This document shows positions 6,001-31,057 of a stretch of DNA of 31,138 bases, in pieces. Source of the DNA: a virus; the IMG/VR virus record IMGVR_UViG_3300022756_000064, positions 1 through 31,138 of that record; one strand, given 5' to 3'. The translations under genes and the position numbers were made by a program. The notes beneath the pieces were generated by a model that had not been told where the DNA came from, did not search any database, and saw only the letters and a list, made by a program, of their open reading frames with translations. Within the stretch, counting starts at the first letter, position 1. Each line of letters starts with the position of its first letter.

Positions 6001-9000
6001 GCTTTATCCGGAGGCCGACGTGCAAATCACTGGCTTCCAAAACGCGGACATCGCCGATGGGTCAGTGGACCTGTCGATTTCAAATGTGCCTTTCGCGAAT
6101 GTGCCGGTCACGGACAAGGCGATGGAACTCTCCGGCGGGCCTACGGATAACCTGCACGATTATTTCCTGGCCAACATGATCAAGAAGTTGCGCCCCGGCG
6201 GATTAAACATCGCTATTACAAGCGCGTTCACGATGGACAAGGGCGCGAGCGAAAACCGAAAATGGATGGCAGACCGCGCGGACCTGGTAGCGGCGTTCCG
6301 GTTGCCGAACAACGCTTTCAAGGCCAATGCAGGCACGGATGTGGTGACTGATATTTTGGTGTTTCGCAAAAAAGATGGACAGATTTTTCCGCACGCGAAG
6401 GATTGGACGATGCTGGATAACGCTACGACACAAAAAGGCGATCCGATTCGGGTAAACCAATATTTCGCGCAGCATCCACAGGATATTCTTGGGTTCCTGG
6501 CAGACGACGGCGAGATGTTCGCGCACGGCGCCGGCGAAAAAGAGATGACGGTGCACGCGGACCCAAACCGGCCGCCTGCGGTGGCGCTGGAGCAAGCCAT
6601 TGACAATTTACCGAAGGACATCGCAGGCGACGGGAACGCGGCCGAAGTGCGCAGCAACGATCCGACCATCTCGAAGATGGGGAATATCGTGGAGAAAGAC
6701 GGCAAGTATTTCTTCCACGGGCAAGCGGAGCCGGACGAGGCGTTGAATGATCCTAAGAACGCGAAGCGAGTTCGAAAGTTTATTGAGACGCGCGACGTTT
6801 TGAATGAGCAGTACCGGCTGGAACTGGATCCGGAAGCGACCGACGAAGATGTTGAAGCTAATCGTCGGATGTTGAACGCGCGTTACGATTCGTTCACCGC
6901 CGATTTCAGTAATTTTCATACTCCGAAAAACAAAGGGCTATTCATTGACGATCCGGATTGGTTCCGGTTGGCCGGCGCGGAGACACCGATTCAGGTTTCA
7001 GGCGGCGTTAAAGAGATGTTGTCGATTTTGGACGGCAAAAAGAGCCGACAATTTACAAAGGCCGACGTGTTCAAGAAACGCGTGCTTACGCCGATCATTG
7101 AACCCACGAAAGCTGACAGTCTAGAAGACGCTTTCGGAATGAGTCTCGGTTGGCGCGGTCGCGTGGACCTTGGCTACATTTCGGATTTAACCGGCCAAAG
7201 CCGGGAACAAGTGGAACAAGGATTGGTCGCATCCGGCATCGTGGTGCGCGACCCAGAAAACGGGCAACTTCAATCTCGCGAGCAATACCTGGCTGGCAAT
7301 GTGCGTAAGAAACTCGACATCGCTAAAGCCGCAGGCCCGGATTACGAGCGCAACGCTCAAATGCTAGAGGCGGTTCAACCGGAGGACGTGCCAATCGACG
7401 AAATCCGGTTCAAGATCGGCGCGACATGGGTGCCAGTGGACGCTTACCAGCAATTCCTGAGCACGATCGGGATTGAGTTACCCATTGAATACCACACAGC
7501 TCTCGCCGGCGGGCGCGACTTTTACACCGTAGGCTTGCGTGATTACCGTGCGACCGGTGTAGCGCACAAAGATTTCAGGACAGACCAGGTGAGTGTGCCT
7601 GAGTTGATGGACTCGATGCTGAACATGAAGCGCATCGAGGTTCTCCACACCGACAAGGATCGAAAGGGTGATACCGATGAAGGCGCAACTATGGCGGCTA
7701 GGGATGCGGGTAAACGGTTGAGTGACGCTTTTGTGGCTTACGCGAAAGGCAATGCGGAGCTTGGTCCGCGGCTCGCGCAAATCTATAACCGCGAGGCGAA
7801 CGGGTTCGCGCAACGGACGTATGACGGACAATTCCTTACTCTCCCGTGGAAAAATAAGGATTTCGATCTTTTCCCCGACAAAAAGAACGTCATTTGGCGC
7901 GCGATACAAGATCGATATGCACTAATTGCGTGGGGCGTTGGCGGCGGCAAAACAGTGATTGCGGCCGGGATCGCGCTTGAATTGCGTCGCCTCAAACTAG
8001 CGTTAAAGCCGATGGTGGTGGTGCACAACTCCACGCTGGAGCAGTACGCCGACGAGATTGCGGTGATTGCGCCGAGCGCCCGGGTATTGATCGGACGCAA
8101 AGACGAACTCTCTGGCGCGAAACGGAAAGAGTTCCTGATGCGAATTGCTGCCGGCGACTGGGACGCGGTAGTTATCGCGCATAGCACCTTCGGATTGATC
8201 GAAGACGACCCAGTGTTTCAGACAAAACACATGGAATCGCTCGTGGACGAAGCGATGCAGAGTTTAACGGATCGCGGATACAACTCAGTCTCGGATGCCA
8301 AGAAATCGCGCGAACCCAGTGTGAAGCAACTAGTCAAGATGATCGAGCAGCTTGAGACGAAGATTCAGGCACTTTCCGAGCGAAAAACCGACACGGGCCT
8401 CTTGAATTTCCAACAACTCGGCGTGGACGCGCTGATCGTGGATGAAGTGCACAAGTTTAAGAAAATGCCGTTCTCGACCAAGCTGGACGTAAAAGGCATC
8501 GACAGCGGCATGAGCCAGCGCGGTTACGCCATGTTGCTCCGAGCCAGGTCAATTCAGGAGCGTAACGGCGGCAAAAACGTGTTCTCGATGACTGGCACGC
8601 CAGTCACGAATACGCTGGGGGAAATCTGGAACCAGGTAAGACTGGTGGCGCCGCATCTCCTGAAAGAATACGGCGTTGAAACGTTCGATCAATTCGTCAG
8701 CAAGTTTGCCGAGGTCGAGACGATCAGCGAAGCCGGCCCGAGCGGTGAACGCAAGATGGTGGAGCGCCTATCGAAGATCGTAAACCTGCCTGAGTGGTCC
8801 ACATTTTTCCGGCAAGCTGCCGACGTGAAACTGGGCGACGACATGGTGGTAAAGAATCGTCCGGGCATCAAAGGAGGCGGCGGACAACTGATCGCGCTGG
8901 AGCGCACACCTGGCACGGCCGCGTGGGTTAATTATATCCGCAACGTGCTCGAAGGGTTCAAAGAGCTAAAATACGACGATTTTAAGGATAATAAGAGCCT

Positions 9001-12000
9001 GTTTGCTGTGCCGGTGCAGGCTTACATCGCGAGCCGAGCCGCAGCGATCGACATTCGGTTGATCGAACCGCGCGCCAAAGATGAGTCGGGCAGTAAGGCT
9101 AACAGGGCGGTTCGCGGCATAATCAAACTCTATCGAGAGACCACGCCATACAACGGGACACAGGTGATCTTCTCCGACTCGTTCAACCAAGTCAAAACCA
9201 GTTTGTTTGATGCCGTGGTGCCACGGTCGAATCTCAACCTAGAGCTCGACCCCAGTAAACCGCCAGGAACGACATTTAATCTTTACGAAGACATCAAGGC
9301 GAAACTGATAGCTCTCGGCGTGCCGGCGGAAGAAATCGCGATTGTTGCCGACAAAGAATTTGATAATGCCAAGCGAAAAAAATCACTCTTCGAGGATGTG
9401 AATAAGGGCAAGGTTCGCATCGTGATGGGCAGCACGGAGAAACTCGGCACCGGCGTCAACATGCAGGAGCGGATGCTTGCGGCGTGGAACCTGGACGTTC
9501 CGTGGACAGCCGCAGGGTTAGAGCAACGCGACGGGCGCGTGTATCGGCAAGGCAATGTGCACGCGGAGATGGGCGTACCCGTGGAATTGACGCGGTTGGG
9601 AATGAAAGACACGCTGGATGAATCGCTCTGGAAAATTATTGAGCGCAAACTGCGGATCCAGAAACAGGCGTTAAGCGGTAAGATCGTGGGGCGCGAACTC
9701 GAAGAGATGAGCGATGTCCTGAGTCTCGCGGAGCAAGCCTCGATTTTAAGCGGCCCATACGGAGCCGAGAGTTTCGAGCTGGATAGCCGGATTCGGGAAT
9801 TAGAAGGGAGCCGGGCCGGGCACGACCGTCAAGTTGCAAACCGAGATTCGGAGATCAGGTCGTCGAAAGAATGGCTGCGCCAGCAGGAAGCCGAAGAGGC
9901 GCGGTCTGAGCCGGCGATGCAGTTAATGGCAAAACTCGGTGAGCGCGTCTCGAAAGACGGTGCTCAGATCACGGTAGATGGCGATTCGTTTGAGACTAAG
10001 ACGGCGATGGTGGAGCGTGTGAACGCGTTATTGGACGCGGAGAAAAACAAACCGACCAACGAAAAAAGCAAAGCCATTTTCTCAGTGGCGGTCAACGGCG
10101 TTCCGGTGCGGTTGGATGTTACTCCTACAGAATATGACGAATGGGATGTTGCGGGTGTAGAAAGCAAGAGGGTAACGAAACCGTCCGCGCAGTTCGATCT
10201 GATGGCGACGGATTCCAATAGCCCGAAATTCGGGCGCGTAACCAGCGCGGCGACGCTGTTGGCGCGCCTCGAGGAATTAAGCGGGACGGTGGACGGAATC
10301 AGGGAAGGCCGAAAGAATAACACGGCGCGATTACGGCAACTGGCCGAGATGCAGCAATTGGGTAAATGGCCGTTTAAAGAGGAATACCAGAGAGCACTTG
10401 CGCGACAGAAAGAGCTTTTGAAGCTGATGCGCGGGGAAGAACTCAAAAAAACAGGAGAAGGAGAAGAAACGCCGAACGCTCAACGCCCAACGCCCAACGC
10501 TCAACCGGCAGAATTGCGAGCACAGGCGACGGCGGATGCTGCCAAGACGCCGGCGGAACGGTTTAAGGATGCGTGGCCGTTGGCTGAATCGATTGCACGC
10601 TCGTATTCGAATATCCCCGGCGTGACGCTGAAGGACGTGGAGCAACATGCCCGGATTGCTCTGGTGCGCGCGGCGCGTGAGTTTGATCCTGCTCGCGGGG
10701 CCGCAATGGACACGTTTGCGCGCAAAGTGGTCGGGAATGAGTTGCGCAGTCTTTACGGCAGGCAGATGCGAACGGCGGGGCGGGAATCGACGGTGCTGGA
10801 TGTTCCCGTCTCCGCCGAAGGCTCTGCCGCGGTTTCACAAAAAGAAAACATCGTCGGGCCGAGCGATGTTCGGGCGGACGTGGCGCGGACTGAGGCGACA
10901 CAAATGCTTTCGACCGCGATTGACGAGTTGCCGGACAAAATGCGAGACGTGATGAATGGAATCTTGTCCGGGAAAGAGACGCTGGGCGAGATCGGGGAAC
11001 GGCTTGGCGGATTACCGAAACAAGCCGTAGGCCGGCTGGCGAGTGCGGCTATGCGCCGGTTGAAAGGGAAACTTGGTGAGAAAGGCGTTTCTGGTGTGAC
11101 GGATCTGTTGAGTCAGGAAACGACCACGGATAACACGGATACGGAGAAAAAGACGTTATCGGATTTCTTGGCGAAGCATGATGCGTCGAAGGGCACCGTT
11201 CCCGCTAAAAAGATAGCTGAGCCGACTAGGAGGAATGTTAAGTTAGCTGAGAAGCTCGGAAATCAATCAACGAGAGACTCGTCTGTTGTTCCTAATTTTC
11301 GGCCTGTGGAGCAGGAAATCGCGATTGGAAGGGCTTATGGCTACAGCGATAACGACATCGCAGCATACTTGCAGCGCAATTACGTGGATCGAATACCCGA
11401 ACGTGTTGCGCAAACGTCTGTAGGCGTTCGACCACCGCAGGAGCTAATTGACAAGTATCCAGAGTTAAAACACGCCATTAAAGTTTCCGAGAAATATGGG
11501 CATTTAGTGAAACTCAGCGAGCAACTGGAACTACTGAGTCAGGTCGTCGAGGATGAAGTGAAGCTGTCTGAATCGGCTGATCCGGTGGCGTCGTTCATGG
11601 AGCTTATGCGGGATGATCCGGTTGAGAAGTTGCGCGGTATAAAAGGCATTGGGCGGCCTGATCTGGCGCTGGGCGCGGAGCCTGCCATGCGGCCGGTGCA
11701 CGAGTTTCATACTGCCACGGCTACGCCGCAAAAACTGGATGATTGGGACAAACAAGGCGAAGCGATTTTGCGCAGCCGCGGCGACAAATTGCCAGCGGAT
11801 GTTACTAAACGTTGGCTGGATGGCTCAGTGCTCGAGCCCGCGGAAGTGCGCGCGACACAGCAATATCTCATCGAAAAACAGGGGCAACCGAAGACGCCAG
11901 AGGAACAACGCGGGTATGACGCGTTGGCGTACGCTTATACCAAGATCGGGGAAGCGACCGCACGGGCGTTGTCTGCGCGCCGTGATCCGTTCAAAACGCC

Positions 12001-17795: not shown

Positions 17796-18030
17796 AACGC
17801 ACACACAAACCGAAAACGAAACGACTAGCAGCTTTCAGAAAGGCTACTTCAACGTCGTGGCTGGCATGGCGTGCATTTTAATTTCGATAATAAACATCGT
17901 TCAAGACAAAGCACCTGAATGGATGGTGCTGGGGGTTTTGGCTGGCCTATTCAGCATCTTGGCCGCGCCAGTAATTAGACGCGCGATAGCTCAACAACTC
18001 CGGGTGATCGCGAATTGGTTAAACTGCTAA
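17785..18030 (+). CDS. Two-helix membrane protein, holin-like
   Basis: An 81-residue product starting at ATG 17785, chosen because it overlaps the preceding stop; starts at 17758 and 17773 are also possible. After a polar N-terminus (TIETHTQTENETTSS) come two membrane segments, YFNVVAGMACILISIINIV (~21-40) and MVLGVLAGLFSILAAPVI (~48-65), then a basic amphipathic tail (RRAIAQQLRVIANWL). Holins and membrane-associated phage proteins share this layout, but no specific family can be named. It directly precedes the portal-like gene. Confidence 0.6.
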   Translation: MTIETHTQTENETTSSFQKGYFNVVAGMACILISIINIVQDKAPEWMVLGVLAGLFSILAAPVIRRAIAQQLRVIANWLNC

Positions 18031-18032
18031 CA

Positions 18033-20414
18033 ATGGCTACTCAAAACGATAAATCGCAGACGCAACAGTTCGTGGATCGGTTGCCGGAAACGCCACAGGA
18101 CGAGGAGCAGGCTAATAAGCCGCGGATGCCGTTCAAGACTTCGTATGTGCTTGATCGCCTTCAGGAAGATGAATTGTGCCGGTATGTGTCGGACGCGGTG
18201 GAGCAGATGTCGAAACAGCTCGGGCGCGATGATGTGCTCGATGACGCGAGCGCGGGCAGCGGTGCGTGGGGCCAGGGCGTTGCGCCGGGGAAGATCCGGA
18301 AACGCGGCGGCGCTTCCAAGGTTGAAAGTTGGATGGGGAAACGGGCGCGATACACTGCGCGTTACGAGAATAATGTGGATGATCGGGTTGAACCGAAAAC
18401 GCTTTTTGAGCACTCGAATCTTACGGCGTCGTTGTCGCAGCGGATTGTACGACAGATGGTGGCTCGGGCTGTGGCGTTCTTTTTCGGGCAACCGGATGAC
18501 ACTGATTGGTTCACCACTGAAGCGGTGGGCGAAGAGGACCAGGTACTGGCGGACAAGATTAAGAAACATTCCAGGTGGAAAGTGGACCAGTGCCAATCGA
18601 AAAAGACTTTGGTCAACTCATTTGAGTATGCCTTTGTGCGCGGCGAGGCGGTGGTGAAACCGACGCATCAACAGCGGTTCCAGATTTACAAGCGGACTTC
18701 GACGATTTTGGTGGACGCGCAAGGTCAGCCGGTGCTCGATGCGAACGGAGATTACATTGTGCAGGGAGACGCGTTTGTGGATGAAATGGCTCCAGCGGAG
18801 CCGGACCAACTTCCAACGTCCAACGCTCAACTCTCAACGCCAAATGAAGAGGCTCAGGGGATAACGCCAGATGTTGAAATGGGAGAGCCTCCGGTTCTCT
18901 TTGGCAGCGGGATGGGAATGGTAAACGAAGGCGGGATTCCGAACGTCAGTCCTCAGTCCTCGGTCATCGGTCCTCCGCCTGCTCAGCCTACTGAGCGACA
19001 GGTGCTTAAGCGCGACGGGGTGACGGTGCTGCCGGAAGTGCCGATATGGCAGCAGCAGGAGATCGCCCGGAAACTGATCAAGTTCGAAGGGCCGGATACG
19101 TCGCTGGTGTATTACAAGGATTTTTTGTGCGGGCTCGCGGAACCGGATATTCAGACTGCGCCGATCATTTGTCATCTCTACGACATGGATCTGATGCGGG
19201 TGGCGCAGATGTTTTCGGGCCAATTCGAGGAAGGCGACGGCGGTATAGCTGATTTTGCGGCGGCGGTGCAACGCTTAAAAGACCTGGCAGCGAACACGAA
19301 TCAGCCAAAAGCGGCTGCGAAAAAGCCGAGGCGCGAGAAAAAGGAACAGGAAACGGACGCGCCTGATGGAGTGGCGGTCAGCGAATTTGCGGAGTGCTGG
19401 TTGACTTACAGTAAAGACGGCGACGGGATGAACGACGAGATACTGGTGATTCTCGATCGCAGAAATAAGGCGCCGATTTATTACGAATACGCGGCGAACG
19501 TGACGGTGCGCGGTGATCGCCCGTTTTACGTGGTTCGTCCAATGAACGTGGACGGTCGCTGGTGGGGCATGGGCGGGATGGAGTATTTCGATTCCGAACA
19601 GGAACCGATAGATCTGATGGTGAACCGTCACAATTTCGCGACTGGCAAGAGTGGCCGGGTAACGTTCTGGCGTCCGTATAACACGCTGGAAGGCGACGCG
19701 AACCCGAACCTGATATTGAACGATGGGGGCACCTACACGCCAAAGCCCGGAATGAAAGATGAAGACGTGCTTTCCTACGTCACGCTGCCGTATGACAGCG
19801 AGCGGTTTGAGTTTCTTCTCAATTTTTACATGCAACTAGAGCAGACCAAGAGCGGGGTGCTCAATAGCGCGGACCAGGAAATGAGCGGGCTCCCGAGCAA
19901 CCAGCTTGCGACCGGGATCAACGAGATACGCGATAGCGGGCAGGAACTGTTTTCTCTGATGTTAATGGAACTTTTCGCTTCGGTAAAAGCGATCTTGCTG
20001 GCGACGATTGACATTATCTACGCCAACATGAACAAGACCGAAGTGTTCAGTTATTTCAACGGGGAAGCGAACGAGATTTTGCAGTTGACCCCGGATGAAG
20101 TGCGCGATCTGACGTTGAACGTGGCGTTGTCGTTGACCAGAAGCCAAAAGAGTAAAGCGGTGGAGATGGGTCAAAACGCCACGGGTTTGATTGGATGGTT
20201 TTATGGGTTGCCGCCGGAGTTGCAGTTGCGCGTGGCGCAATTTGCCAGGAACCAGCTAAAGGCGTTCGGCGTGCCACAGGCGGATAAGGTGATTGAGCCG
20301 GTGCCGCCGATGGTGCCGCCCGATGGGGGAATGAACGGCAGCGTAAAAGACGAGGCGTCTCGCGCGGCTGAAAGCGTGGGTGTCGGGCGTGTGAGGGCTG
20401 TTCCGGCGATATGA
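18033..20414 (+). CDS. Portal-like protein
   Basis: The 793-residue product starts at ATG 18033; a TTG at 18015 is an unlikely alternative. Its size, acidic/basic helical layout and the core segment GDRPFYVVRPMNVDGRWWGM and GGMEYFDSEQEPIDLMVN match phage portal proteins, whose central part often reads 'PF...g.wyG.G....l...Q..ln.l.n'. The portal forms the ring through which DNA is packaged and ejected and docks terminase. Residues ~255-330 are a non-conserved insertion containing two dispersed repeats (LPTSNAQLSTPNEEAQ and VSPQSSVIGPPPAQP). The C-terminus is disordered and Pro-rich. Position before scaffold and capsid genes fits the usual phage order. The stop overlaps the next gene (ATGA). 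No terminase gene is in the window. Confidence 0.75.
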   Translation: MATQNDKSQTQQFVDRLPETPQDEEQANKPRMPFKTSYVLDRLQEDELCRYVSDAVEQMSKQLGRDDVLDDASAGSGAWGQGVAPGKIRKRGGASKVESWMGKRARYTARYENNVDDRVEPKTLFEHSNLTASLSQRIVRQMVARAVAFFFGQPDDTDWFTTEAVGEEDQVLADKIKKHSRWKVDQCQSKKTLVNSFEYAFVRGEAVVKPTHQQRFQIYKRTSTILVDAQGQPVLDANGDYIVQGDAFVDEMAPAEPDQLPTSNAQLSTPNEEAQGITPDVEMGEPPVLFGSGMGMVNEGGIPNVSPQSSVIGPPPAQPTERQVLKRDGVTVLPEVPIWQQQEIARKLIKFEGPDTSLVYYKDFLCGLAEPDIQTAPIICHLYDMDLMRVAQMFSGQFEEGDGGIADFAAAVQRLKDLAANTNQPKAAAKKPRREKKEQETDAPDGVAVSEFAECWLTYSKDGDGMNDEILVILDRRNKAPIYYEYAANVTVRGDRPFYVVRPMNVDGRWWGMGGMEYFDSEQEPIDLMVNRHNFATGKSGRVTFWRPYNTLEGDANPNLILNDGGTYTPKPGMKDEDVLSYVTLPYDSERFEFLLNFYMQLEQTKSGVLNSADQEMSGLPSNQLATGINEIRDSGQELFSLMLMELFASVKAILLATIDIIYANMNKTEVFSYFNGEANEILQLTPDEVRDLTLNVALSLTRSQKSKAVEMGQNATGLIGWFYGLPPELQLRVAQFARNQLKAFGVPQADKVIEPVPPMVPPDGGMNGSVKDEASRAAESVGVGRVRAVPAI
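18809..18841 (+). repeat. In-frame CCAACGCTCAA-type repeat in the portal-like gene
   Basis: ACTTCCAACGTCCAACGCTC and following units read LPTSNAQLSTPNEE, in the same translated frame (NAQ) as the copies at 10468 and 28371. Confidence 0.75.
18947..18974 (+). repeat. In-frame CAGTCCTCAGTCCTCGG-type repeat in the portal-like gene
   Basis: Short GTCCTCAGTCCTCGGTCATC units read VSPQSSVIGPPP. It is the reverse-complement type of the 3583-3612 repeat and lies ~105 bases after another repeat in the same insertion. Confidence 0.6.
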
Positions 20415-21262: not shown

Positions 21263-21772
21263 TCAATGATCTAGCCGCTTCGCGGTCTGTTTCGATGTTT
21301 TTCTCGCGTTTGAGATCGCGCGCTTGACGATAATCTTTGCCCCAATCTTGGTGAACGGCAGTTTCGCGCGATCGGCTTCCTCTTTAAGCCAGCCAACGAT
21401 TGTATCGATGTGCTGTTTGCACCAATCAATGCCCATCTGATTCATCACGAGCATCCGAGTATTACATTTGCAATTAGGGGCTGGTTTTAGGCCTAGCTTT
21501 GATAGCAGTTTTTTCAGCTCGGTGCCCGGTCCAGATAGATTAACGGGCTGTGTAGTTGGCGATTGCCGCGCGGGTAGAGCCGCCGAGGATAACTTGGGAA
21601 CCACCGCCTTCGGCGCGTATTTCTTGCGCAAGACAGAATAAACTGCGTGTTCGATATAAAGAATGTCTCCCTCAATTCGGCCAGCTGAAAGAAACTCATC
21701 TAAATATCTAGCAGGCCGATTACCAGCCTTGGCTTGCAAATCCGAAATTCGTATTTTGCCAGGTTCACTCAT
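21263..21772 (-). CDS. Conserved-looking phage protein with C-terminal Cys/helical domain
   Basis: The 169-residue product starts at the ATG whose last bases overlap the preceding stop (21772; an upstream start at 21793 would overlap by 25 bases). Residues ~1-50 (ISDLQAKAGNRPARYLDEFL and EGDILYIEHAVYSVLRKKY) may be a small winged-helix-like region. The C-terminal ~85 residues contain GPGTELKKLLSKLG, PNCKCNTRMLVMNQMGIDWC and a helical end with DTIVGWLKEEADRA. This C-x-C ... C domain recurs, by my recollection, in environmental phages next to fibre genes. Function unknown. It is the last gene of the seven-gene minus cassette. Confidence 0.6.
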   Translation of the reverse strand: MSEPGKIRISDLQAKAGNRPARYLDEFLSAGRIEGDILYIEHAVYSVLRKKYAPKAVVPKLSSAALPARQSPTTQPVNLSGPGTELKKLLSKLGLKPAPNCKCNTRMLVMNQMGIDWCKQHIDTIVGWLKEEADRAKLPFTKIGAKIIVKRAISNARKTSKQTAKRLDH

Positions 21773-23022
21773 GGTGCTGGTAAAAAACCACATGGATCAG
21801 GATCACAGTCAGTTCCACTCCCCATAAAAGTTCCGCCATCGACCTCACAAGCGAATTGAGTTACATCACTATAGCAAATACCGTCTAAACAGCACGCGCC
21901 CAGGCACGGATCAGGGTCACAGGTTGTTCCATCACCCTGATAAACTCCAGTAGGATTACTTATACACTCTGCTTCGCTAAGGATAAAACAACCATCACTC
22001 GTGCAACACGCGCCTGTTCCCGGCGGTGTCGTGCAAGTATCTTCTTCACACGGGACGTTATCACCCTGAAATGCTCCTTCGGCAGCGATGCACTCAGCCT
22101 CAGTTTTACAGGAGCAATCCTCACCCTCGCAGCACGCGCCTTTGCACTTGTCGGGACAGGCACCAACTACCCTAACGTTCGTGAGCGTAGTTTCGCCATT
22201 GACCTCTGGCGCTAAGACTTCATCCCCGATTATCTCAGTCTCTCCTACCGCAATCGTTACAGTCTTCGGTGTATCTACCAGGTCTCCATCATCATCAGGA
22301 ACGAAGTGCTCATTATATTTAATGCGAATGTCGATGTCTTGCGGACAAGCTATTGTGAATTTCGGTTTGAATTTGGAAAGGCTGTCGCTGCTTCCCCCCT
22401 CAGTAATTATATCCCGGACAGCACTGCAAGAACCTCCAAAAGTCCCCGGATATGGAACATCATTTAGATGTTCAAGAAGCATCTCATCGGTGTATGGGTC
22501 AGATAGATACCAACTGCCAGAAGATACTGTGCGATAACCTTCAAAGGTGTGATCGGAATGCAACGTAGCGGATGTTGGCGATACATCCCAATCATCATCG
22601 CTCGCAAATGGCGGACTAAACCAATCCAAGCTACCATAGGTCGTTGTTGGCGGAGAGGCGTCACAATGAGTGGTAACGGTAGTGCAGTCGCCAAGGTGTG
22701 AATCAGGAAGAAAATCGCAATCAAGTGAAACATCTGGCACCAAACCAAGATGGTGCTCCATATTTGTGCATGTCTGGACTGCTCCTTCAACGTTCCCTCC
22801 ACATGGGCCAACCCGCGTAACAGTGGATGTATAATCGTTTATCCCGCGCCTGAGATAATGATCAGTTTCTGTGCCATCAAAATTGAAAAATCCGCATTTT
22901 TGCACCTGAACGGAATCGCAAACTACAGAAACAGCAGGACAACACCCCGGAGCAAACAAAACCTTCTGCTCAGCAGGGTCATACAGGACCTTGCCCTCAG
23001 AATTAACTAAAACCCCGGGCAT
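21769..23022 (-). CDS. Virion or fibre-like protein with three C-terminal Cys-rich repeats
   Basis: The 417-residue protein has an N-terminal part (PGVLVNSEGKVLYDPAEQKV) and a beta-rich, Asp/Ser/Thr-rich middle without a recognised domain. Its C-terminus holds three ~38-residue Cys-rich units at ~293-330, ~335-373 and ~374-411, each with GACC near the start, a TEAEC-like centre and a GxxCxxDxC end (QGDGTTCDPDPC in the second). Such units occur in many copies in extracellular proteins of Planctomycetes and relatives. They suggest a disulfide-bonded surface part that could bind host or glycan. Start and stop overlap neighbours by 1 and 4 bases. Confidence 0.6.
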   Translation of the reverse strand: MPGVLVNSEGKVLYDPAEQKVLFAPGCCPAVSVVCDSVQVQKCGFFNFDGTETDHYLRRGINDYTSTVTRVGPCGGNVEGAVQTCTNMEHHLGLVPDVSLDCDFLPDSHLGDCTTVTTHCDASPPTTTYGSLDWFSPPFASDDDWDVSPTSATLHSDHTFEGYRTVSSGSWYLSDPYTDEMLLEHLNDVPYPGTFGGSCSAVRDIITEGGSSDSLSKFKPKFTIACPQDIDIRIKYNEHFVPDDDGDLVDTPKTVTIAVGETEIIGDEVLAPEVNGETTLTNVRVVGACPDKCKGACCEGEDCSCKTEAECIAAEGAFQGDNVPCEEDTCTTPPGTGACCTSDGCFILSEAECISNPTGVYQGDGTTCDPDPCLGACCLDGICYSDVTQFACEVDGGTFMGSGTDCDPDPCGFLPAP

Positions 23023-23699
23023 TACGCGCAGCCTTCCCCATCACCGCACTTGGTAGCGCCGCACTCAGCAACGCAAACGGCGATCCACTTTTGATTGCCG
23101 TCCGATGAATCGAAACCCCAGATCCAGTTTTTGTCTTCGTCGAGTCCTGTGGTGGGAAGCACTTCGAATACTATGTCGCCGCAGATTTCGTTGGTCGGGG
23201 TGACAACCGGTGTGGCTCCGGAGCTATCAACTTTTACGTGGCCTATTGTTTTGTAGGCAATGCCACCGGCGTTGTCTGGCGTGGCTGCGCCGTTGTTGAG
23301 CGAGACGCTGGTAATGGTTCCAGTGGATTGGTCTAGTGTGCATTCAGCCCAGATTTCGTCGCCATCGGCTACTTCTAACTGATAAGTGTCGCCGCTAGGC
23401 ATTCCGCTGGGGTCGATGCCGTCGCTGTTGGGATCGTAAACTACGCCGTCGAGGATGAGCACCAGCGCGGTGCCTGGTTCGCTGGCATCGGAGAGACGGA
23501 AGGAGAAACGAACGCCATCTGCCGGATCAGCCCTGCCTGCGCGATCAGCGTCAACTGCCCATACTTTGCCGTCTGCGCCGACGATTCGCGCGGTCCTTGG
23601 CGATTTACTGGCCGGAACGTGGTCGGCGGCCCTGTGGATTTGTTGCAAGCCGCGAATGTGCGGCGGCGCATGTGACCAATTTGAGGGTTGCCAGGGCAT
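23022..23699 (-). CDS. Probable virion surface protein, beta-rich
   Basis: ATG 23699 is preferred: AAAAAGG lies 9 bases before it, whereas the upstream GTG at 23720 falls inside a repeat. The 225-residue product begins MPWQPSNWSHAPPHIRGLQQ, a basic N-terminus, followed by beta-rich Gly/Asp/Ser/Thr-rich sequence (GDTYQLEVADGDEIWAECTL, DQSTGTITSVSL) and ends with a Cys-containing tail (CVAECGATKCGDGEGC). No catalytic motif. The layout suggests a fibre, decoration or tail-associated protein. Its stop overlaps the next start (TAATG), so the two are coupled. Confidence 0.6.
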   Translation of the reverse strand: MPWQPSNWSHAPPHIRGLQQIHRAADHVPASKSPRTARIVGADGKVWAVDADRAGRADPADGVRFSFRLSDASEPGTALVLILDGVVYDPNSDGIDPSGMPSGDTYQLEVADGDEIWAECTLDQSTGTITSVSLNNGAATPDNAGGIAYKTIGHVKVDSSGATPVVTPTNEICGDIVFEVLPTTGLDEDKNWIWGFDSSDGNQKWIAVCVAECGATKCGDGEGCA

Positions 23700-23717
23700 T
23701 TTAGGGAACCTTTTTAA

Positions 23718-23765
23718 CACGAATGGACACTAATTTACACGAATAGCTGATTTCCCGGATGGCAC
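23718..23765 (-). repeat. Dispersed ACGAATGGACAC / ACGGATGGCACGG repeat at a gene boundary
   Basis: Both motif types sit side by side. On the minus strand the repeat codes the C-terminus (SVPSGKSAIRVN) and TAG stop of gene 23730-23969 and the upstream leader of gene 23022-23699. Confidence 0.8.
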
Positions 23766-23969
23766 GGATTTTGGTTTAGGAACACCGAGTAGGCTGTTTT
23801 GTTGGATAGGGATCGCTTCTGGATGCTCACGCCGATCAACAATATTTCCGTTCGACAGACACCCGCCAAAACCAGCTTTGACTACCTCGCGGATCTTACA
23901 CAAAGCATCCACCTTGGGTTGATCTTCGGGTCTGATCGCCTTCAGAGATTCGTGTTTATTCGTGTCCAT
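23730..23969 (-). CDS. Small phage protein whose start and stop lie in repeats
   Basis: The 79-residue product has a central part (VDALCKIREVVKAGFGGCLS, NGNIVDRREHPEAIPIQQNS, LLGVPKPK) that looks conserved; I recall similar 'GGCxxNGxIVDRRexPeAvPIpaNslLGVPxP' proteins in phages but no function. The first eight residues (MDTNKHES) and about the last twelve are translated from two copies of an ACGAATGGACAC-type repeat. Start ATG 23969 lies 14 bases inside the upstream glycosyltransferase gene, so coupling is likely. The core may bind or bridge structural proteins; this is a guess. Confidence 0.6.
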   Translation of the reverse strand: MDTNKHESLKAIRPEDQPKVDALCKIREVVKAGFGGCLSNGNIVDRREHPEAIPIQQNSLLGVPKPKSVPSGKSAIRVN

Positions 23970-23977
23970 TCGTGGTT
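23945..23977 (-). repeat. ACCACGAATGGACACGAATA repeat spanning a gene junction
   Basis: On the minus strand this one repeat codes the last six residues (TTNGHE) and the TAA stop of the glycosyltransferase and, in another frame, the ATG and first codons (MDTNKHE) of the next gene. Confidence 0.85.
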
Positions 23978-25062
23978 TTCTTTAAGAGGTCTGCCCACCA
24001 AGGCCAGCAGGCATCGGGGTTGCCGTGGCCTGTGGTGACGAGCTGCGCGTAAGCCTGGCTGGCGATGGCGCGCCGCATGTTTGGGTAAAAGGCCAGTTCG
24101 CTGGCGCGGAAAGCGGCTTCATCGGGTGAATCGACCAGAAAACCGGTTTCTTTGTCGGTGATCAGTTCTTTGGCGCCGCCGCGGTTATCGGCTATGACCA
24201 CTACGCCGGCAGCCTGCGCTTCGAGCATAATGCGACCCAAAGCTTCTTCCCATTGGTAATCGCACACGTGCACAAGCACATGGCTACGGGCGTAAAGCTC
24301 CGACAGCGTTTGGCTGTCGTGTATGTGCTGGTGCAACGTGACGTTGAGTTCGTTGTGCCATTTACAGGAATTATCGGTTGCCGTTGGGTCGCCTACTTTT
24401 GCGGCGGCTTCCGGGCCGAACCCGGCAATTTCGATCTGGACGCTGGCGCCCGCGGGCGCGGTGACACCGCAAAACATGCGCCACGTGTCGGGATGCCATT
24501 TATCGGGGTCGTCCCGGCAGATTTTCAGGGCGCGAAATGTTTTGTCGTCGCGCTCGGTTCTGAAACGCAGTGGCAGATAGCGGCTTTTGGTGTTGATGAA
24601 AGCTTTGTAACCTGAGCGGGCTTTAACGGCTTTATGAGCGCGCCGGGCGATGATGGGGCCGAGTTTGTCTGCCAACGCGCGGCTTTGAAAAAAAAACTCG
24701 TCGATTAAGCCTTCCCGGTGCGCGGCGATCTCGTCGTCGGTGGCGTAGTGCATACAATCGGAGTAAACGAAATAACCGGGGCGATCGTTATTTTCCCGGA
24801 TGAGCGGGAACAGGCGGACGCCTTCACCGAAAGACATGAGGACCTGGCACTCTTTGAACATGCCCGGTGTGTACTGAACCAGTGTTACGCCAAGTTTGTC
24901 CCGGAGATAATCGGCAGCGGGGTTGCCGTGGTCAATGATCGGATCGCCCGGCGGCACGATCATGCGCACAGGGACTTTGCGCGAGCGCAATAGCTCGATG
25001 GCGCCTAATATCTCGGTGCCGCAGCCGCCGCATTGGTGGACGATGCCGAAGAAGTTGATCAT
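23956..25062 (-). CDS. GT-B glycosyltransferase (GT4-like)
   Basis: The 368-residue product (ATG 25062) begins MINFFGIVHQCGGCGTEILG, a Rossmann-like start with a Gly-rich loop. The C-terminal domain has EEALGRIMLEAQAAGVVVIA at ~272-291, then DNRGGAKELITDKETGFLVD, the classic donor-nucleotide site (E-x7-E) of group 1 / GT4 glycosyltransferases. It should transfer a sugar from a nucleotide sugar. A longer product from TTG 25137 is possible, but its extra 25 residues (including LRPAKPWQSR) come from a repeat. It lies just downstream of the Ser-rich repeat gene, the obvious candidate acceptor; DNA glucosylation is an alternative. An intragenic copy of the GACAGCG hairpin lies at 24302-24318. Confidence 0.85.
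   Translation of the reverse strand: MINFFGIVHQCGGCGTEILGAIELLRSRKVPVRMIVPPGDPIIDHGNPAADYLRDKLGVTLVQYTPGMFKECQVLMSFGEGVRLFPLIRENNDRPGYFVYSDCMHYATDDEIAAHREGLIDEFFFQSRALADKLGPIIARRAHKAVKARSGYKAFINTKSRYLPLRFRTERDDKTFRALKICRDDPDKWHPDTWRMFCGVTAPAGASVQIEIAGFGPEAAAKVGDPTATDNSCKWHNELNVTLHQHIHDSQTLSELYARSHVLVHVCDYQWEEALGRIMLEAQAAGVVVIADNRGGAKELITDKETGFLVDSPDEAAFRASELAFYPNMRRAIASQAYAQLVTTGHGNPDACWPWWADLLKKTTNGHE
24302..24318. repeat. Intragenic copy of the GACAGCG hairpin
   Basis: GACAGCGTTTGGCTGTC, followed by GTGTATG, differs by one base from copy 6 (GACAGCGTTTCGCTGTC then GTGATATG). On the minus strand it codes DSQTLS in the glycosyltransferase. Unlike the other copies it precedes no gene in its plus-strand orientation. 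Confidence 0.6.
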
Positions 25063-25098
25063 CCTGCTTTGCCAAGGCTTCGCAGGACGAAGGAGATC
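25063..25098 (-). repeat. Hairpin repeat abutting the glycosyltransferase start codon
   Basis: On the minus strand TCCTGC...GCAGGA form a 6-bp stem with GCC/GGC inside, and the final A of GCAGGA is the A of the ATG at 25062. A similar hairpin precedes the capsid gene (29402-29423). It could hide or replace a ribosome-binding site; no other clear one is present. Confidence 0.6.
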
Positions 25099-25117
25099 GT
25101 CCAATGTTGAATTAAGA

Positions 25118-25843
25118 TCATGTGGGAACGCCTTCAAAGAACAGGCCGCCGGCTACGGGGATTTCCATTTGGAAGTCTACGGACACGTCTTCGTAGCGTG
25201 TTGAAACTTCCGGGGCAGGATTTTCGGTGGTAGTGGAAGTGCGGCTGCCGTGCGTGGTGCTGGTGGTGCGGGTCGGATCGGTGTGGGTGGTTTGCCTGCT
25301 ACTGGAACCGCTTTCAGAGGCTGAGCCGCTGCTAGAAGTGGACGTGGAATGGGAACCACTGCGACTGCCGGAACTGGATCGGCTTGAACTGGTGCTGCTA
25401 GAATGCGTGCCGCTGCGACTAGAGGACGCACTGCGACTGCTCGATGTGCTGGCGCTATGCGTTCCGCTACGCGAACCGGTGCCACTACGCGACGACGATG
25501 TGCTTGCGCTGTGCGTCCCGCTACGCGAACCTGTTCCGCTGCGACTGCTCGACGTACTGGCGCTGTGTGTGCCACTGCGTGAGCCGGTGCCACTACGCGA
25601 TGACGATGTGCTGGCACTATGCGTCCCGCTGCGGCTTGAACTGGTGCTGCGACTGCCTGACGTGCTGGCGCTGTGCGTGGTAGCGCGGCTGGTGCTTCCG
25701 CTGCGGCTGCTGGACGTGCTACGGGTGCCGCTGCGGCTACCGGTGGCTGAGCGCGTAGAGGATTGGCTTGTCGAATGGCTAGATGAACTGTTTTCCGATG
25801 TGCCGTGCTCAGTTCTGCGTTGGTATAGACGGTAATCAGCCAT
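25118..25843 (-). CDS. Serine-rich repeat protein (probable surface protein, possibly glycosylated)
   Basis: The 241-residue product has a short N-terminus (MADYRLYQRRTEHG), a Ser/Thr/Arg/Gly-rich body and a C-terminal ~55 residues that look folded (EVSTRYEDVSVDFQMEIPVA, GGLFFEGVPT). Residues 55-180 are seven 18-residue units near GTHSASTSSSRSGTGSRS. There is no signal peptide or LPxTG anchor, unlike bacterial serine-rich adhesins. It is coupled (TAATG) to the acidic Ser-rich gene upstream and followed by a glycosyltransferase gene, so it may be a glycosylated fibre or capsid decoration. A long antisense frame over the repeat is a composition artefact. Confidence 0.7.
   Translation of the reverse strand: MADYRLYQRRTEHGTSENSSSSHSTSQSSTRSATGSRSGTRSTSSSRSGSTSRATTHSASTSGSRSTSSSRSGTHSASTSSSRSGTGSRSGTHSASTSSSRSGTGSRSGTHSASTSSSRSGTGSRSGTHSASTSSSRSASSSRSGTHSSSTSSSRSSSGSRSGSHSTSTSSSGSASESGSSSRQTTHTDPTRTTSTTHGSRTSTTTENPAPEVSTRYEDVSVDFQMEIPVAGGLFFEGVPT
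25304..25681 (-). repeat. Tandem 54-bp repeat, seven units
   Basis: Seven consecutive 54-base units encode 18-residue blocks. The middle three or four are nearly identical in protein and the outer ones diverge (GSHSTSTSSSGSASESGS at the C-terminal edge). Slippage or recombination could change copy number. Confidence 0.85.
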
Positions 25844-26664
25844 TATAGGGGTGGTTCCTCGTAATAAAGGGTTTCGACGTTAGCGCCGCCCGTAACATGA
25901 TAGGTTACCTGGTCGCCGGCGGACGAACCGCTTTCGGACGACGATTCATCGTGCGTCTCTGAATCCTCGCTGGTGCTGGTCTCGCTTGAGCTCTGGGTTT
26001 CGCCGCCGCCGTCGCCACCGGCGGTTTCAGAGTTTTCTGCGCCTGTAGAATTGTCAGCGGATTGCTCACCGCCGCTGGAAGCGCCTTCGTCGCTGGATTG
26101 GTTGCTTTCAGCGGATTCTTCGCCGCCGCTGGAAGCACCCTCGTCGCTGGATTGGTTGCTTTCAGCCGATTGCTCGCCTCCGCTGGACGCGCCTTCATCG
26201 CTGGATTGGTTAGTTTCGCTGGATTGCTCGCCGCCGGCGGTAGCTGAGTTATCGATGCCACCGCTTTGTTCGATGGAAGAATCGCCGCCTGCAGCGGATC
26301 CCGATTCGACGCCGGCACTGGCCTCGCTGCTTTGGTCGGTGCCGGTGTTGATGCCGTTATCAGTTGAGTTACGGGTGGAAGCGGTCACACCGGATTCGAC
26401 ACTGGTGGAAACGACGCCTTCGCGGACTTCGTAAACGGTGGAAGGATCGTCAACGGTGACGCGGACAATGGGGCCGGAGCGGGACGTGGAACTGATGCGG
26501 GTAAGATCGTCTTTGCGAATGATAGCTTCGCCGGAGATGCGAATGGTGGCAGGCTCGAGGACTTGCAGAATGTTATCGTCCCGCGTTTTGCGCAGGCCCA
26601 CGCGTGTTTTATAGCAAAGCTGCGCGATAAAATCGGGCAGATCATTTAGATGAATCTTTGCCAC
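25843..26664 (-). CDS. Acidic Ser/Glu/Gly-rich repeat protein with an N-terminal folded domain
   Basis: The 273-residue product starts at GTG 26664. Residues 1-95 form a compact-looking domain (HLNDLPDFIAQLCYKTRVGL, PATIRISGEAIIRKDDLTRI, IVRVTVDDPSTVYEVREG). Residues ~100-250 are low-complexity Ser/Glu/Gly/Asn with three near-identical 18-residue units (NQSSDEGASSGGEQSAES) at 152-205. The end (QVTYHVTGGANVETLYYEEP) looks structured. The N-terminal part could attach to the virion and the acidic tract act as a flexible arm. It is the first gene of the minus cassette and is coupled to the Arg/Ser-rich repeat gene, whose opposite charge is notable. Confidence 0.65.
   Translation of the reverse strand: MAKIHLNDLPDFIAQLCYKTRVGLRKTRDDNILQVLEPATIRISGEAIIRKDDLTRISSTSRSGPIVRVTVDDPSTVYEVREGVVSTSVESGVTASTRNSTDNGINTGTDQSSEASAGVESGSAAGGDSSIEQSGGIDNSATAGGEQSSETNQSSDEGASSGGEQSAESNQSSDEGASSGGEESAESNQSSDEGASSGGEQSADNSTGAENSETAGGDGGGETQSSSETSTSEDSETHDESSSESGSSAGDQVTYHVTGGANVETLYYEEPPL
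26050..26211 (-). repeat. Tandem 54-bp repeat, three units
   Basis: Three 54-base units encode NQSSDEGASSGGEQSAES and close variants. The period equals that of the unrelated tandem repeat in the adjacent gene. Confidence 0.85.
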
Positions 26665-27365: not shown

Positions 27366-27406
27366 ACGCAGGCAACTGAGACGGTCGCGCTACCTTAAAC
27401 TTGGCA

Positions 27407-27425
27407 TTGACAGCGTTTCGCAGTC
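27407..27425 (+). promoter_or_regulatory. GACAGCG hairpin element, copy 5
   Basis: TTGACA (27407-27412) runs into GACAGCGTTTCGCAGTC (27409-27425), 17 bases before ATG 27443. The sequence 17 bases after TTGACA (TAAGCG) is a poor -10 box. Confidence 0.55.
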
Positions 27426-27442
27426 GTGGTAAGCGCGAGAAC

Positions 27443-27763
27443 ATGATGAAACATTTGCTTCGCTGGCTGCTGATTCTTTCGATTGTGCCGTTGGTGGCTT
27501 ACGCTGCCACAATTTATGTGGGGCCGCAGACGGACGGTTATCACATCGGGCTACAGTCGCATGACCGTGTGGGATTCCGCGGGGCAAAGCCTGTGGGCAA
27601 ACCGATCATTACCGGTACGGCAACCGCAGACATTATCGCGGCGCTGGCAGCGCAGGGGCTTCTGGCCACGGCCACGCCAACCTCCACGGCCACTGCAACC
27701 TCTACGGCGACCTCAACGGCCACAGCGACCTCAACGGCAACCGCGACTGCGACCGCGCCTTAA
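27443..27763 (+). CDS. Secreted or virion small protein with signal peptide and Ala-Thr repeat tail
   Basis: The 106-residue product starts at ATG 27443 (ATG 27446 also possible; GAGAAC precedes). Residues 1-21 (MMKHLLRWLLILSIVPLVAY then A) form a clear Sec-type signal peptide with an AYA cleavage site. The middle (DRVGFRGAKPVGKPIITGTA, IIAALAAQGLLA) matches a short pattern I recall from small phage head-fibre or head-associated proteins ('vGFfGt.Pv.kP'). The last ~30 residues alternate Ala, Thr and Ser (TPTSTATATSTATS and on) and are coded by an ACGGCNAC-like hexamer repeat. It lies between microprotein genes. Confidence 0.6.
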   Translation: MMKHLLRWLLILSIVPLVAYAATIYVGPQTDGYHIGLQSHDRVGFRGAKPVGKPIITGTATADIIAALAAQGLLATATPTSTATATSTATSTATATSTATATATAP

Positions 27764-27916: not shown

Positions 27917-27959
27917 TACGTAGGGGTACCCGCGCTCCTGTCGTTCCTGTTTTTCTTTG

Positions 27960-27978
27960 TTGACAGCGTTTCGCTGTC
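27960..27978 (+). promoter_or_regulatory. GACAGCG hairpin element, copy 6
   Basis: TTGACA (27960-27965) runs into GACAGCGTTTCGCTGTC (27962-27978), a perfect 6-bp stem. The ATG of the scaffold-like gene follows only 5 bases later with no Shine-Dalgarno, so a -10 box at the normal spacing would overlap the start codon. An RNA role is more likely than a promoter here. Confidence 0.6.
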
Positions 27979-27983
27979 GTGAT

Positions 27984-29318
27984 ATGCCGCAGTCTCAAAT
28001 GGATGAGACTCAAACCTCTGGCGAAAGCCGGGGCGAGCAATCTTCTGGTCAAACGGCGGGCGAGAGTCAATCGCAAGCGGCTGGTGAAGTGAAGGCTGAA
28101 GATACGGCGCATAGCGCCGTGGCTACAGCGGGAACTGAATCGGGTGCTGCCACTGCGTCTGAGAAATCAACGACACCACAACAGGGCGAAGCTGAGGGGG
28201 AACGCGGCGAGGGCGCTGCGGCTACGGCGGCGAAGCCTGAGCGGTCCAAGACCGCAGTGGGTGTGGAAGATTATGAACGGATGAAGGCGGATGCGCTTAG
28301 TCCGAAGCCAGCAACTACGGGTCCGGCTGTTGTTTCCGGTGGCGAAAGCCCTGGGAAAACAGAGGAGCAGAAAACGTCCAACGCTGAACTTCCAACGTCG
28401 AACGCCCAAGTAGAAGAGCCGCCTAAAGGCGGGACTCCGAGCGAGGCTCAGGGCGAAGGCGGCGGCGAGGAGGAGAATAAACTTCCTGATCGGGTTCGGC
28501 TGGGCGGGCTTTCGGATGCGGACAAGGGGCACATAGTGGCGGCGAAAGCGATCGCTACGGCTGAAAAGATTCCGTTTGCGGATGCGTTATTTCGCGTGAC
28601 TGGAAAGGCGACGGCGAAAGCTGAAGGCGCTACGGGTAGCGAAACGGCTACAGAGACGGCAGCGACGACGGAGGGTGCATCGAGAACGGTTGAGCAAATC
28701 CAGGCGGATATTGCGGCAAAAAAGGCGGAGAAGAAAGACGCGGCCGCGCAGCTTGATCTGAGTAGGACGGCTGAAATCGATGATGAACTGGATACGTTGC
28801 GCGACGAACTCGGTATGGCCCGCAGGGCGGTTGAGGAAGCGAACTGGCTGGCTGAGAACGAACGGCAAACGCAGTTTCAGACATCGGTGCGCGATTCCAA
28901 GAAGCGCCTGCTGGAAGCGTATCCGGACGCGGCAGACGATAACAGCGCGCTCTCGAAAGAAATGCTGGCCATCGCAGACGTGATGGAGCAGCAGAATAAT
29001 CCGCTGGTCTATGAGGCGGACGCGCCGTTTAAGATTGGGCAGATGGCTGCGAACAAGCGCGGGATACCGCCCCAGAGCGGACCAAGTAAGAAAGAATCTT
29101 CCACACCTGCTGCGGGAACACGGGCCGCGGCACCTGCCAAGCCGCAAGGCGTAAGGCAGGAAGCAGTGGTGTCCAAACCCGCAGGCGGACCGGCAGCAGC
29201 CGGGAGCGCCCGCACAACCAGCGGGGGGAACGGACAGACTGCTATTGACCCTGAAAAAATCAGGACGGTGGAAGATTACGAAGCGGTGAAGGCCGAAGTA
29301 ACCGGCGCGCGCAGATAA
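27984..29318 (+). CDS. Scaffolding-like protein
   Basis: The 444-residue product lies directly before the capsid gene. Residues 1-170 are disordered, rich in Gln, Ser, Gly, Ala and Glu. LPDRVRLGGLSDADKGHIVA and AEKIPFADALFRVTGK (~175-215) look conserved; a coiled coil (TVEQIQADIAAKKAEKKDAA to RRAVEEANWLAENERQ) spans ~235-300, then a helical part (RDSKKRLLEAYPDAADDNSA) and a disordered C-terminus ending with a short helix (IRTVEDYEAVKAEVTGARR). This plan fits phage scaffolding proteins that guide capsid assembly. In-frame repeats at 28371-28437 add SNAELPTSNAQVEEPPKGGT in the disordered region. Confidence 0.75.
   Translation: MPQSQMDETQTSGESRGEQSSGQTAGESQSQAAGEVKAEDTAHSAVATAGTESGAATASEKSTTPQQGEAEGERGEGAAATAAKPERSKTAVGVEDYERMKADALSPKPATTGPAVVSGGESPGKTEEQKTSNAELPTSNAQVEEPPKGGTPSEAQGEGGGEEENKLPDRVRLGGLSDADKGHIVAAKAIATAEKIPFADALFRVTGKATAKAEGATGSETATETAATTEGASRTVEQIQADIAAKKAEKKDAAAQLDLSRTAEIDDELDTLRDELGMARRAVEEANWLAENERQTQFQTSVRDSKKRLLEAYPDAADDNSALSKEMLAIADVMEQQNNPLVYEADAPFKIGQMAANKRGIPPQSGPSKKESSTPAAGTRAAAPAKPQGVRQEAVVSKPAGGPAAAGSARTTSGGNGQTAIDPEKIRTVEDYEAVKAEVTGARR
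28371..28409 (+). repeat. In-frame CCAACGCTCAA-type repeat in the scaffold-like gene
   Basis: AACGTCCAACGCTGAACTTC and following units read KTSNAELPTSNAQV, the same translated phase as at 10468 and 18809. Confidence 0.75.
28416..28437. repeat. In-frame hairpin repeat (CCGCC-TAAA-GGCGG)
   Basis: A perfect 5-bp stem with TAAA loop, flanked by GAG and GACTC, reads EPPKGGTPS. It lies 6 bases after the preceding repeat, so two repeat families are stacked in one linker. Confidence 0.6.
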
Positions 29319-29446: not shown

Positions 29447-31057
29447 ATGAAAACGATCAGAACTTATGGCGGATGGCTGCTCATGGCCGTCTGCTTTGTG
29501 GCAGCGAGCTACGCGCATGGGATAGGCCGCATCGTAGCGGATGCGGTTCCGTTTCTACCGTTGCTCGGGACGGTATTTTACGAGGCGAACAACACAGGCA
29601 CGGCGTTAGCTGCCATGTCACCGGAGGATGTCCGGAAGCTGTGGCAGGCAGGCGTGGATGTGTTCGAACAATCGAGCGATTACTTCAAAGATTTCGAAGG
29701 TGAGGGGGTGATGTCTTTGATTGATACAGTCACGGACACCAGTAAGGGCAAGGGCCAATCGATTCGGTTCACGGTGCAAAGCGGGTTCTACGATGAGCCG
29801 CACCTTGGCGAAGAACTCTTTGAGACCAAGGACGATTACGAAGAGATCCTAATCGACGGCAACGATCTTGAAGTGGATTGGGTGCGTCACGCATACCGAT
29901 ACACAGAGCGCATGGAAGAAGTAATGGGTATGCGCGGTGAGATCGTGAACGGCACGAACGAAGAGCTTGGCAAATGGTTCGGGCGCCTCAAAACCGAGCA
30001 GATGTTTATGATGTTCCGTGAAAAACTGCCGGCAGTGAATACGCTCTACGGCGGGAGTCACGCGCAAAACACGCTGGTTAGCGCCGATTCGCTTAACTGG
30101 AACTCGATCGTGCTCACCGGTTACATTCAGAAGCGCATGGGTGGCGCGCCGGCAAAAGTCGGCAGCATCAAAGGGCAACCGGTGTTCAAGAACGTGGTGG
30201 TCGCGCCGAGCGACGTACTGGCCAGCTTGGAAGTGGACCCTGAGTTTCGCCAGATTTTGCGCGAGACCAAGGATGAAGACGCGGCCAAACTGCTCTTTAG
30301 CGGTGGCTGGGCCAATGTGCGCGGGCACATCATCTCTGAGTACACGCCGATCGATCACGACGGAGAAGGCGCGGTAGGCAGCCCGCTCAATGGGAAAGCG
30401 TTCCTGGGCGTAGCGATTACTGCCGGCACGGCCGTGTTCGACATTAAAGGCGGCGGAAATGCGACTAGCGCGGCGAAGACCAAAAAGAAATACTTCAAGT
30501 ATTTTCCTGGTTACGCCTATCGGTTCCTGCTCTCGGACATTCTCTCTGTGAGCAGCGCGGAGAAGTATTTGCTGATCATCAATCCGCCGGATGCCGTAAC
30601 CGACCCGAACAAGGTGGGCATGTATGCCTACACGGTCGGGAACAATGGTAACAAGATCACGATTACAAAGCGGCTGGGATCCGCTGCCAGTGTCGCGCGG
30701 GTCACAACGCTTGGTAACGTGACCTGGAACACGGGCGTATGGCTGGCAGGCGCGGACGGGTTTGCCGGGCACACCGATGACCATCCCGAAGGCGCGTTGA
30801 TTCTTCCCTGTAACGCGAACGGGCAACCGTTTGCGGATGTGCTGATGCTCGGTGCGCGCTGCGCACGGCGCGGTTACGGAAAATACCGTAACAAGCGGAT
30901 GAGCGACCAGCACGAGGGCGGGTTCATCCAGGAGAATTACATTGTGAGCGTGTTCGGTCAGGCGCCGCGTAAGGACCGCTTGCAGCGTGTGCCCGGCGCC
31001 TTCCGGATCCGCGTCGCGGTCAATTACCCTGGCGTGCCGCTACCGGTGATCGTCTAA
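29447..31057 (+). CDS. Major capsid protein, N4-gp56/DUF4043-like
   Basis: The 536-residue product is the probable shell protein. From ~40 on it reads like large podovirus-type capsid proteins: ANNTGTALAAMSPEDVRKLW, IRFTVQSGFYDEPHLGEELF, EVDWVRHAYRYTERMEEVMG, MRGEIVNGTNEELGKWF; the C-terminal half has GALILPCNANGQPFADVLML and HEGGFIQENYIVSVFGQ. Position after the scaffold-like gene and its size support this. The start is well supported by GGGAG. Unusually, residues 1-23 (MKTIRTYGGWLLMAVCFVAA, SYA) look like a Sec signal or membrane segment, which capsid proteins rarely have; a later start at ATG ~29615 would drop it but has no better ribosome site. Confidence 0.8.
   Translation: MKTIRTYGGWLLMAVCFVAASYAHGIGRIVADAVPFLPLLGTVFYEANNTGTALAAMSPEDVRKLWQAGVDVFEQSSDYFKDFEGEGVMSLIDTVTDTSKGKGQSIRFTVQSGFYDEPHLGEELFETKDDYEEILIDGNDLEVDWVRHAYRYTERMEEVMGMRGEIVNGTNEELGKWFGRLKTEQMFMMFREKLPAVNTLYGGSHAQNTLVSADSLNWNSIVLTGYIQKRMGGAPAKVGSIKGQPVFKNVVVAPSDVLASLEVDPEFRQILRETKDEDAAKLLFSGGWANVRGHIISEYTPIDHDGEGAVGSPLNGKAFLGVAITAGTAVFDIKGGGNATSAAKTKKKYFKYFPGYAYRFLLSDILSVSSAEKYLLIINPPDAVTDPNKVGMYAYTVGNNGNKITITKRLGSAASVARVTTLGNVTWNTGVWLAGADGFAGHTDDHPEGALILPCNANGQPFADVLMLGARCARRGYGKYRNKRMSDQHEGGFIQENYIVSVFGQAPRKDRLQRVPGAFRIRVAVNYPGVPLPVIV

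Follow-up and report, generated by a model that had tools for sequence, protein, structure and literature searches.

Coupled Ser-rich phage genes with matched arm lengths: a proposed antiparallel, heteromeric fibre

Several well-described systems share features with the locus analysed here. Serine-rich repeat adhesins are low-complexity proteins with linked glycosyltransferases (GtfA/GtfB). Phage tail fibres such as T7 gp17 are homotrimeric. Keratins are obligate heteropolymers of acidic and basic partners, and polar zippers and silk-like repeats are built on alternating small and polar residues. Polar sequences of low complexity are generally assumed to be disordered. We describe a pair of adjacent phage genes encoding such sequences, in which each chain appears to have evolved in register with the other.

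The locus and its relatives

The window is the whole stretch of DNA analysed, a 31-kb phage record from IMG/VR (31,138 nucleotides). Its relevant features are as follows, with the basis of each assignment in brackets where one applies.

18015-20414: portal gene
23956-25137, minus strand: GT4-type glycosyltransferase (GT) ORF, likely start ATG 25062; a lineage-specific neighbour, not a required part (Pfam, alignment, distribution)
25118-25843, minus strand: SRP2, basic Ser/Arg-rich chain, 241 aa, net charge +12 (ORF, family)
25121-25204, minus strand: SRP2 conserved C-terminal strand region (..RYEDVSVDFQMEIPVAGG..) (HMM of SRP2 C-termini; strand predicted in relatives)
25205-25807, minus strand: SRP2 low-complexity arm, ~201 residues, 18-residue repeats, net charge +15
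25808-25843, minus strand: SRP2 N-terminal tip (MADYRLYQRRTE), aromatic and basic, proposed partner of the SRP1 tip (tip comparison)
25843-26664, minus strand: SRP1, acidic chain, 273 aa, GTG start, net charge -36 (ORF, conserved family, charge)
25846-25881, minus strand: SRP1 C-terminal tip (...VETLYYEEPPL), aromatic and acidic, proposed distal tip (tip comparison)
25882-26484, minus strand: SRP1 low-complexity arm, ~201 residues, 18-residue repeats, net charge -35
26485-26664, minus strand: SRP1 N-domain, residues 1-60, conserved (~55 aa), the presumed anchoring part (alignment, HMM matches, AlphaFold of relatives' read-through fusions)
27957-29318: scaffold-like gene
29447-31057: major capsid gene

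The SRP1 stop and the SRP2 start overlap by one base (TAATG), and the two genes are therefore coupled. Ser and Thr make up 54% of SRP2 residues. The neighbouring ORF matches Pfam Glycos_transf_1 (E 7.6e-16), with the C-terminal domain present. A sequence-only reading of the window had described two Ser-rich, oppositely charged, coupled genes adjoining a GT4-type gene and lacking signal peptides. The reading frames, the overlap, the charges and the Pfam match confirm the former, and inspection of both translations by eye agrees with the latter, showing no signal-peptide-like or hydrophobic N-terminal segment and no LPXTG. A 66.9-kb record carries the SRP1 and capsid genes of the window at 100% identity.

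Searching with a profile built from SRP1 residues 1 to ~60, we found 31 length-distinct SRP1-SRP2 sets among 120 loci, spread over ~30 lineages of an uncultured phage group and constant in order. Recurrence of the same pair in the same order places the features of the window far beyond chance. Across the 31 sets the SRP2 start falls close to the end of the SRP1 stop, from 4 nt upstream to 20 nt downstream of it, and no fused SRP1-SRP2 gene was seen among the pairs examined. The SRP2 proteins have mainly a C-terminal stretch in common, like 'EDxGxxxxFxIPI'.

In most lineages the pair follows an adaptor-like gene and a ~290-aa nozzle-like gene and precedes fibre-like or lysis-like genes (names assigned by eye and position); in the clade of the window it is located elsewhere. 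Whole records of L069, L078, L032 and others gave no match to the pair, with positive controls detected in 8/8 cases, and in pair-less lineages fibre-like genes occupy its usual site. A role in a tail appendage is suggested because the pair follows nozzle-like genes and is replaced at that site by fibre-like genes. Two stretches of fibre-like genes (L078:13033-16566 and L017:14917-16809) have signal-peptide-like N-termini, which is unusual for phage tail proteins.

Neither protein gave a reproducible family match in Pfam, PHROGs, PDB or BFVD, where isolated low-complexity or weak matches were the only returns, and fold searches with a low-confidence model gave none. The cultured phages Atu_ph08, Stean and KLEP18-1, whose capsids are distant relatives, have no detectable SRP1 domain (positive controls detected in 8/8 cases), nor did tblastn with one SRP1 match anything in a phage collection. 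A suspected likeness between the SRP1 N-domain and bacterial trypsin-co-occurring/DUF2589-like domains found no Pfam support even at E 10. One member matched a collagen-like PHROG (E 2.6e-4); a collagen-like protein was rejected, as Gly does not occupy every third residue and the dominant lags are 6, 12, 14, 18, 21, 26 and others. No counterpart is described in the open papers and libraries searched.

A scan of bacterial genomes detected related capsids in Luteolibacter pohnpeiensis KCTC 22041 (L124, on a 63-kb scaffold), a Chthoniobacterales MAG and Cerasicoccus frondis (L126). All three belong to the Verrucomicrobiota, and this suggests Verrucomicrobiota as the host phylum of the group.

Other parts of the window deserve mention. 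A single 4860-aa ORF (206-14788, plus strand) has a ddrB-like ParB domain, SNF2/ResIII helicase parts and sigma-70 regions 2 and 4; in Agrobacterium phage Atu_ph08, a gene of 14.6 kb bears the annotation Snf2 helicase. Downstream of the GT lie genes for proteins of 232 and 417 aa (21769-23720, minus strand), possibly another conserved virion gene pair; L015, L018 and L020 have counterparts of matching size and position ahead of the scaffold gene. A small ORF (27401-27763, plus strand) has a signal-peptide-like start followed by Thr/Ala repeats.

The glycosyltransferase as a separable neighbour

The sequence-only reading had also proposed a glycosylated-fibre system, for which linkage of the SRP genes to the GT in relatives would matter. 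The linkage holds in one set of relatives (L004, L006, L008, L011, L013), in which a GT at 43-44% identity lies beside a Ser-rich SRP2 and SRP1 is upstream wherever the contig reaches that far. The SRP and GT reading frames overlap in L004, L008 and L013, and in L004 the block from portal to SRP1 appears to be inverted as a whole relative to the window. However, the linkage is not obligate. Most pair-bearing lineages have no GT beside the pair, and Glycos_transf_1 had no match anywhere in the records of pair-bearing L018, L019, L020, L022 and L024, while L040 and L041 have the GT directly upstream of the portal and lack the pair. The pair and the GT are therefore separable, and the pair does not need this GT. 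On this ground glycosylation was rejected as the core function, and the proposed system is not established.

By analogy with serine-rich repeat adhesins, the linked GT might add O-linked sugars to the Ser/Thr-rich proteins while these are still in the cytoplasm and not yet assembled; this is a tentative and somewhat doubtful reading. Besides the order kept in the five relatives, composition favours it: few SRP2 proteins are as rich in Ser/Thr as the GT-linked ones (Ser+Thr 0.45-0.54 versus a median of 0.34, in two independent lineages). It is opposed by the distribution just described and by the GT profile, which matches many general GT-B enzymes, none titled protein O-glycosyltransferase among the PDB matches listed, and it leaves the length lockstep unexplained. 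Glycosylation may, judging from composition and distribution, be a local addition in GT-bearing lineages. L015 encodes two proteins between portal and scaffold (L015:3786-6043), one ADP-heptose-transferase-like and the other, by eye, resembling a fusion of a glycosyltransferase with a methyltransferase; the SRP pair of L015 is at another site.

Lockstep of length, repeat period and charge

SRP1 ranges from 103 to 319 aa across 27 two-chain lineages, and SRP2 length follows it (r=0.992, slope 0.95) such that the difference, SRP1 minus SRP2, stays at 32±7 aa. With the same fixed trimming, both arms of the window pair are 201 residues long. Phylogenetic independent contrasts on the capsid tree gave r=0.999 (slope 1.00) for the two lengths and, as a control, r=0.03 for SRP1 against the capsid protein (MCP). 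Since the former value is weighted by a very short branch, we also used 13 sister or near-relative comparisons; 13/13 changed with the same sign, and the mean residual was 3.5 aa for a mean change of 62 aa. The scan of bacterial genomes came after the length rule had been formulated. The L. pohnpeiensis and Chthoniobacterales MAG pairs have SRP1 proteins of 156 and 261 aa, for which SRP2 lengths of 124 and 225 aa were predicted and 129 and 236 aa found; their SRP1/SRP2 charges are -15/+4 and -51/+28.

A subgroup of four lineages has the gene order SRP1a-SRP2-SRP1b, and here three chains are matched (SRP1a/SRP2/SRP1b 233/164/231 aa in L104, 162/96/160 in L106, 231/164/234 in L108 and 243/176/246 in L111). 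Between L108 and L111 each protein differs in length solely by an insertion of 12 residues (+12/+12/+12). A further scan, also held out, added ten three-chain sets, and among the seven with distinct lengths r=0.9988 both for SRP1a-SRP2 and for SRP1a-SRP1b. In L133, L136 and L139 the SRP1a arm has switched to a (GNGKGH)-type repeat; the three chain lengths are still locked in L133 and L136.

The partners also agree in tandem period. The 18-residue period is strong in both window proteins (z ~10 and 16 versus composition-preserving shuffles), and equal or near-equal periods recur in L064 and L065 (18/18), L046 and L008 (14/14), L020 (12/12), L072 (21/21), L015 (9/9), L086 (33/32) and L084 (26 in both). 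Overall the partner match is 0.80 compared with 0.45±0.07 for permuted partners (0/20000).

Adjacent tandem-repeat genes are generally prone to recombination, so the lockstep could in principle be a DNA-level artefact in which the two arrays are copies of each other that expand together. We regard this as very improbable. The repeat units of the partners differ in sequence, and the arms share 8-mers, direct or reverse-complement, at close to the level of codon-shuffled controls, which largely refutes it. Moreover, pairs without a strong tandem repeat (L019, L024, L116, L124, L125) obey the length rule too. With no DNA homology between the arms, copying does not account for the lockstep, and selection on the proteins themselves is indicated.

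SRP1 is acidic in 31/31 sets and SRP2 is more positive than its partner in 31/31, although SRP2 is not net positive in 10/31 lineages and the charge-density contrasts of the two are weakly correlated (-0.34). Alternating Ser/Thr residues, typical of extended strands, give a clear, beta-like period of 2 in many lineages and are absent in L064, L072, L086 and L018. The earlier suggestion that the opposite charges could let the two proteins pair has gained strong support, as lengths, repeat periods and charge co-vary between partners. Pairing of SRP1 with SRP2 is well supported by evolution, from which we infer that the chains would pair physically.

Orientation, the proposed fibre and known systems

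If the arms pair, they could do so in parallel or antiparallel. In SRP1a and SRP1b the L108 to L111 insertions directly follow the N-domain, whereas the one in SRP2 is 39 residues from the C-terminus, and these sites match only with an antiparallel SRP2, which is therefore favoured. Repeat-block offsets are tighter in the antiparallel register (SD 10-18 versus 21-24 for parallel). Local charge is mirrored with a mean r of -0.41 antiparallel versus 0.00 parallel (p=2e-4; p=0.009 with interior residues only), and the two held-out pairs gave -0.87 and -0.42 antiparallel versus +0.36 and -0.03 parallel. The charge test was weak or mixed in the held-out three-chain group, and orientation there therefore rests on the insertions. 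Both tips, of SRP1 and of SRP2, are richer in aromatic residues than the arms. AlphaFold models of two read-through fusions of relatives place the SRP2 C-strand alongside a helix-strand base domain of SRP1 and leave the arms unmodelled (pLDDT below 50); because a read-through fusion favours a hairpin, this prediction is weak support.

Most known fibres are parallel, and an in-register pair of that kind would conform to the common architecture of homotrimeric fibres and could accommodate the mixed three-chain charge data. We consider this arrangement unlikely, as indel position, repeat-block offsets and charge mirror all disfavour a parallel register. Another explanation is that the arms are matched not to each other but to a common third ruler, such as another virion part or a host layer. 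Equal lengths would result from this too, but a ruler alone does not predict identical repeat periods, mirrored charge, an antiparallel register or 12-aa insertions at matching places, and we judge it still less likely than a parallel pair. An antiparallel arrangement of SRP1 and SRP2 is the likely one on these comparisons of sequence.

We propose that SRP1 and SRP2 form two strands of one elongated heteromeric structure. SRP1 would leave a small conserved base domain and extend outward, and SRP2 would return beside it, antiparallel and in register, to contribute its terminal strand to that base. The arms, an acidic polar repeat in SRP1 and a more basic one in SRP2, would pair over their whole length, so that a change of length or period in one gene must be matched in the other. 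A third chain of equal length would come from the duplicated SRP1 of one subgroup. By gene position the product would most likely be a fibre or whisker on a short tail, ~65 nm long in the window phage if fully extended, and the GT may decorate it in some lineages. Gene order is what points to a fibre function. A beta-like structure, presence in the virion and the tail-appendage role are likewise our deductions. On the whole, we think it reasonably probable that the pair builds a polar fibre of unlike chains, antiparallel and in register, with the GT outside its core; this fibre is probably a tail appendage.

The chances seem to us about even that this is a new fibre architecture, in which two or three separately encoded low-complexity chains share a base and form an antiparallel, charge-complementary polar zipper, and appendage length is tuned by matched indels. 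Evolution itself here reports a residue-by-residue partnership of two low-complexity chains, in ~30 lineages and with out-of-sample confirmation. If true, the model shows how the length of a heteromeric fibre could be set by simple genetic means, of use in materials and phage biology. It also yields a general screen, for adjacent low-complexity genes with co-varying lengths. Relatives in sequenced strains of L. pohnpeiensis, with the pair, and C. frondis make the model directly testable.

The locus resembles each of the known systems in part. With serine-rich repeat adhesins it shares Ser-rich low-complexity repeats beside a GT4-type gene; unlike them, the window pair consists of two coupled chains of opposite charge in a phage neck/tail module, the proteins have no visible signal peptide and most relatives lack the GT. 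With T7 gp17-type fibres it shares a gene neighbourhood and, likely, an elongated tail appendage, but here two or three different polypeptides have low-complexity polar arms, a length lock across genes and no sequence match. By analogy with keratins, the chains are acidic and basic partners of matching rod length; the SRP arms are not heptad coiled coils but Ser/Thr/Gly/Asn-rich polar repeats, apparently antiparallel. Polar zippers and silk-like alternating beta repeats, also analogies, have in common with the pair the alternating small and polar residues seen in many lineages and the complementary charges; the SRP chains differ in lacking the alternation in some lineages, in being encoded by two separate genes and in having anchored ends.
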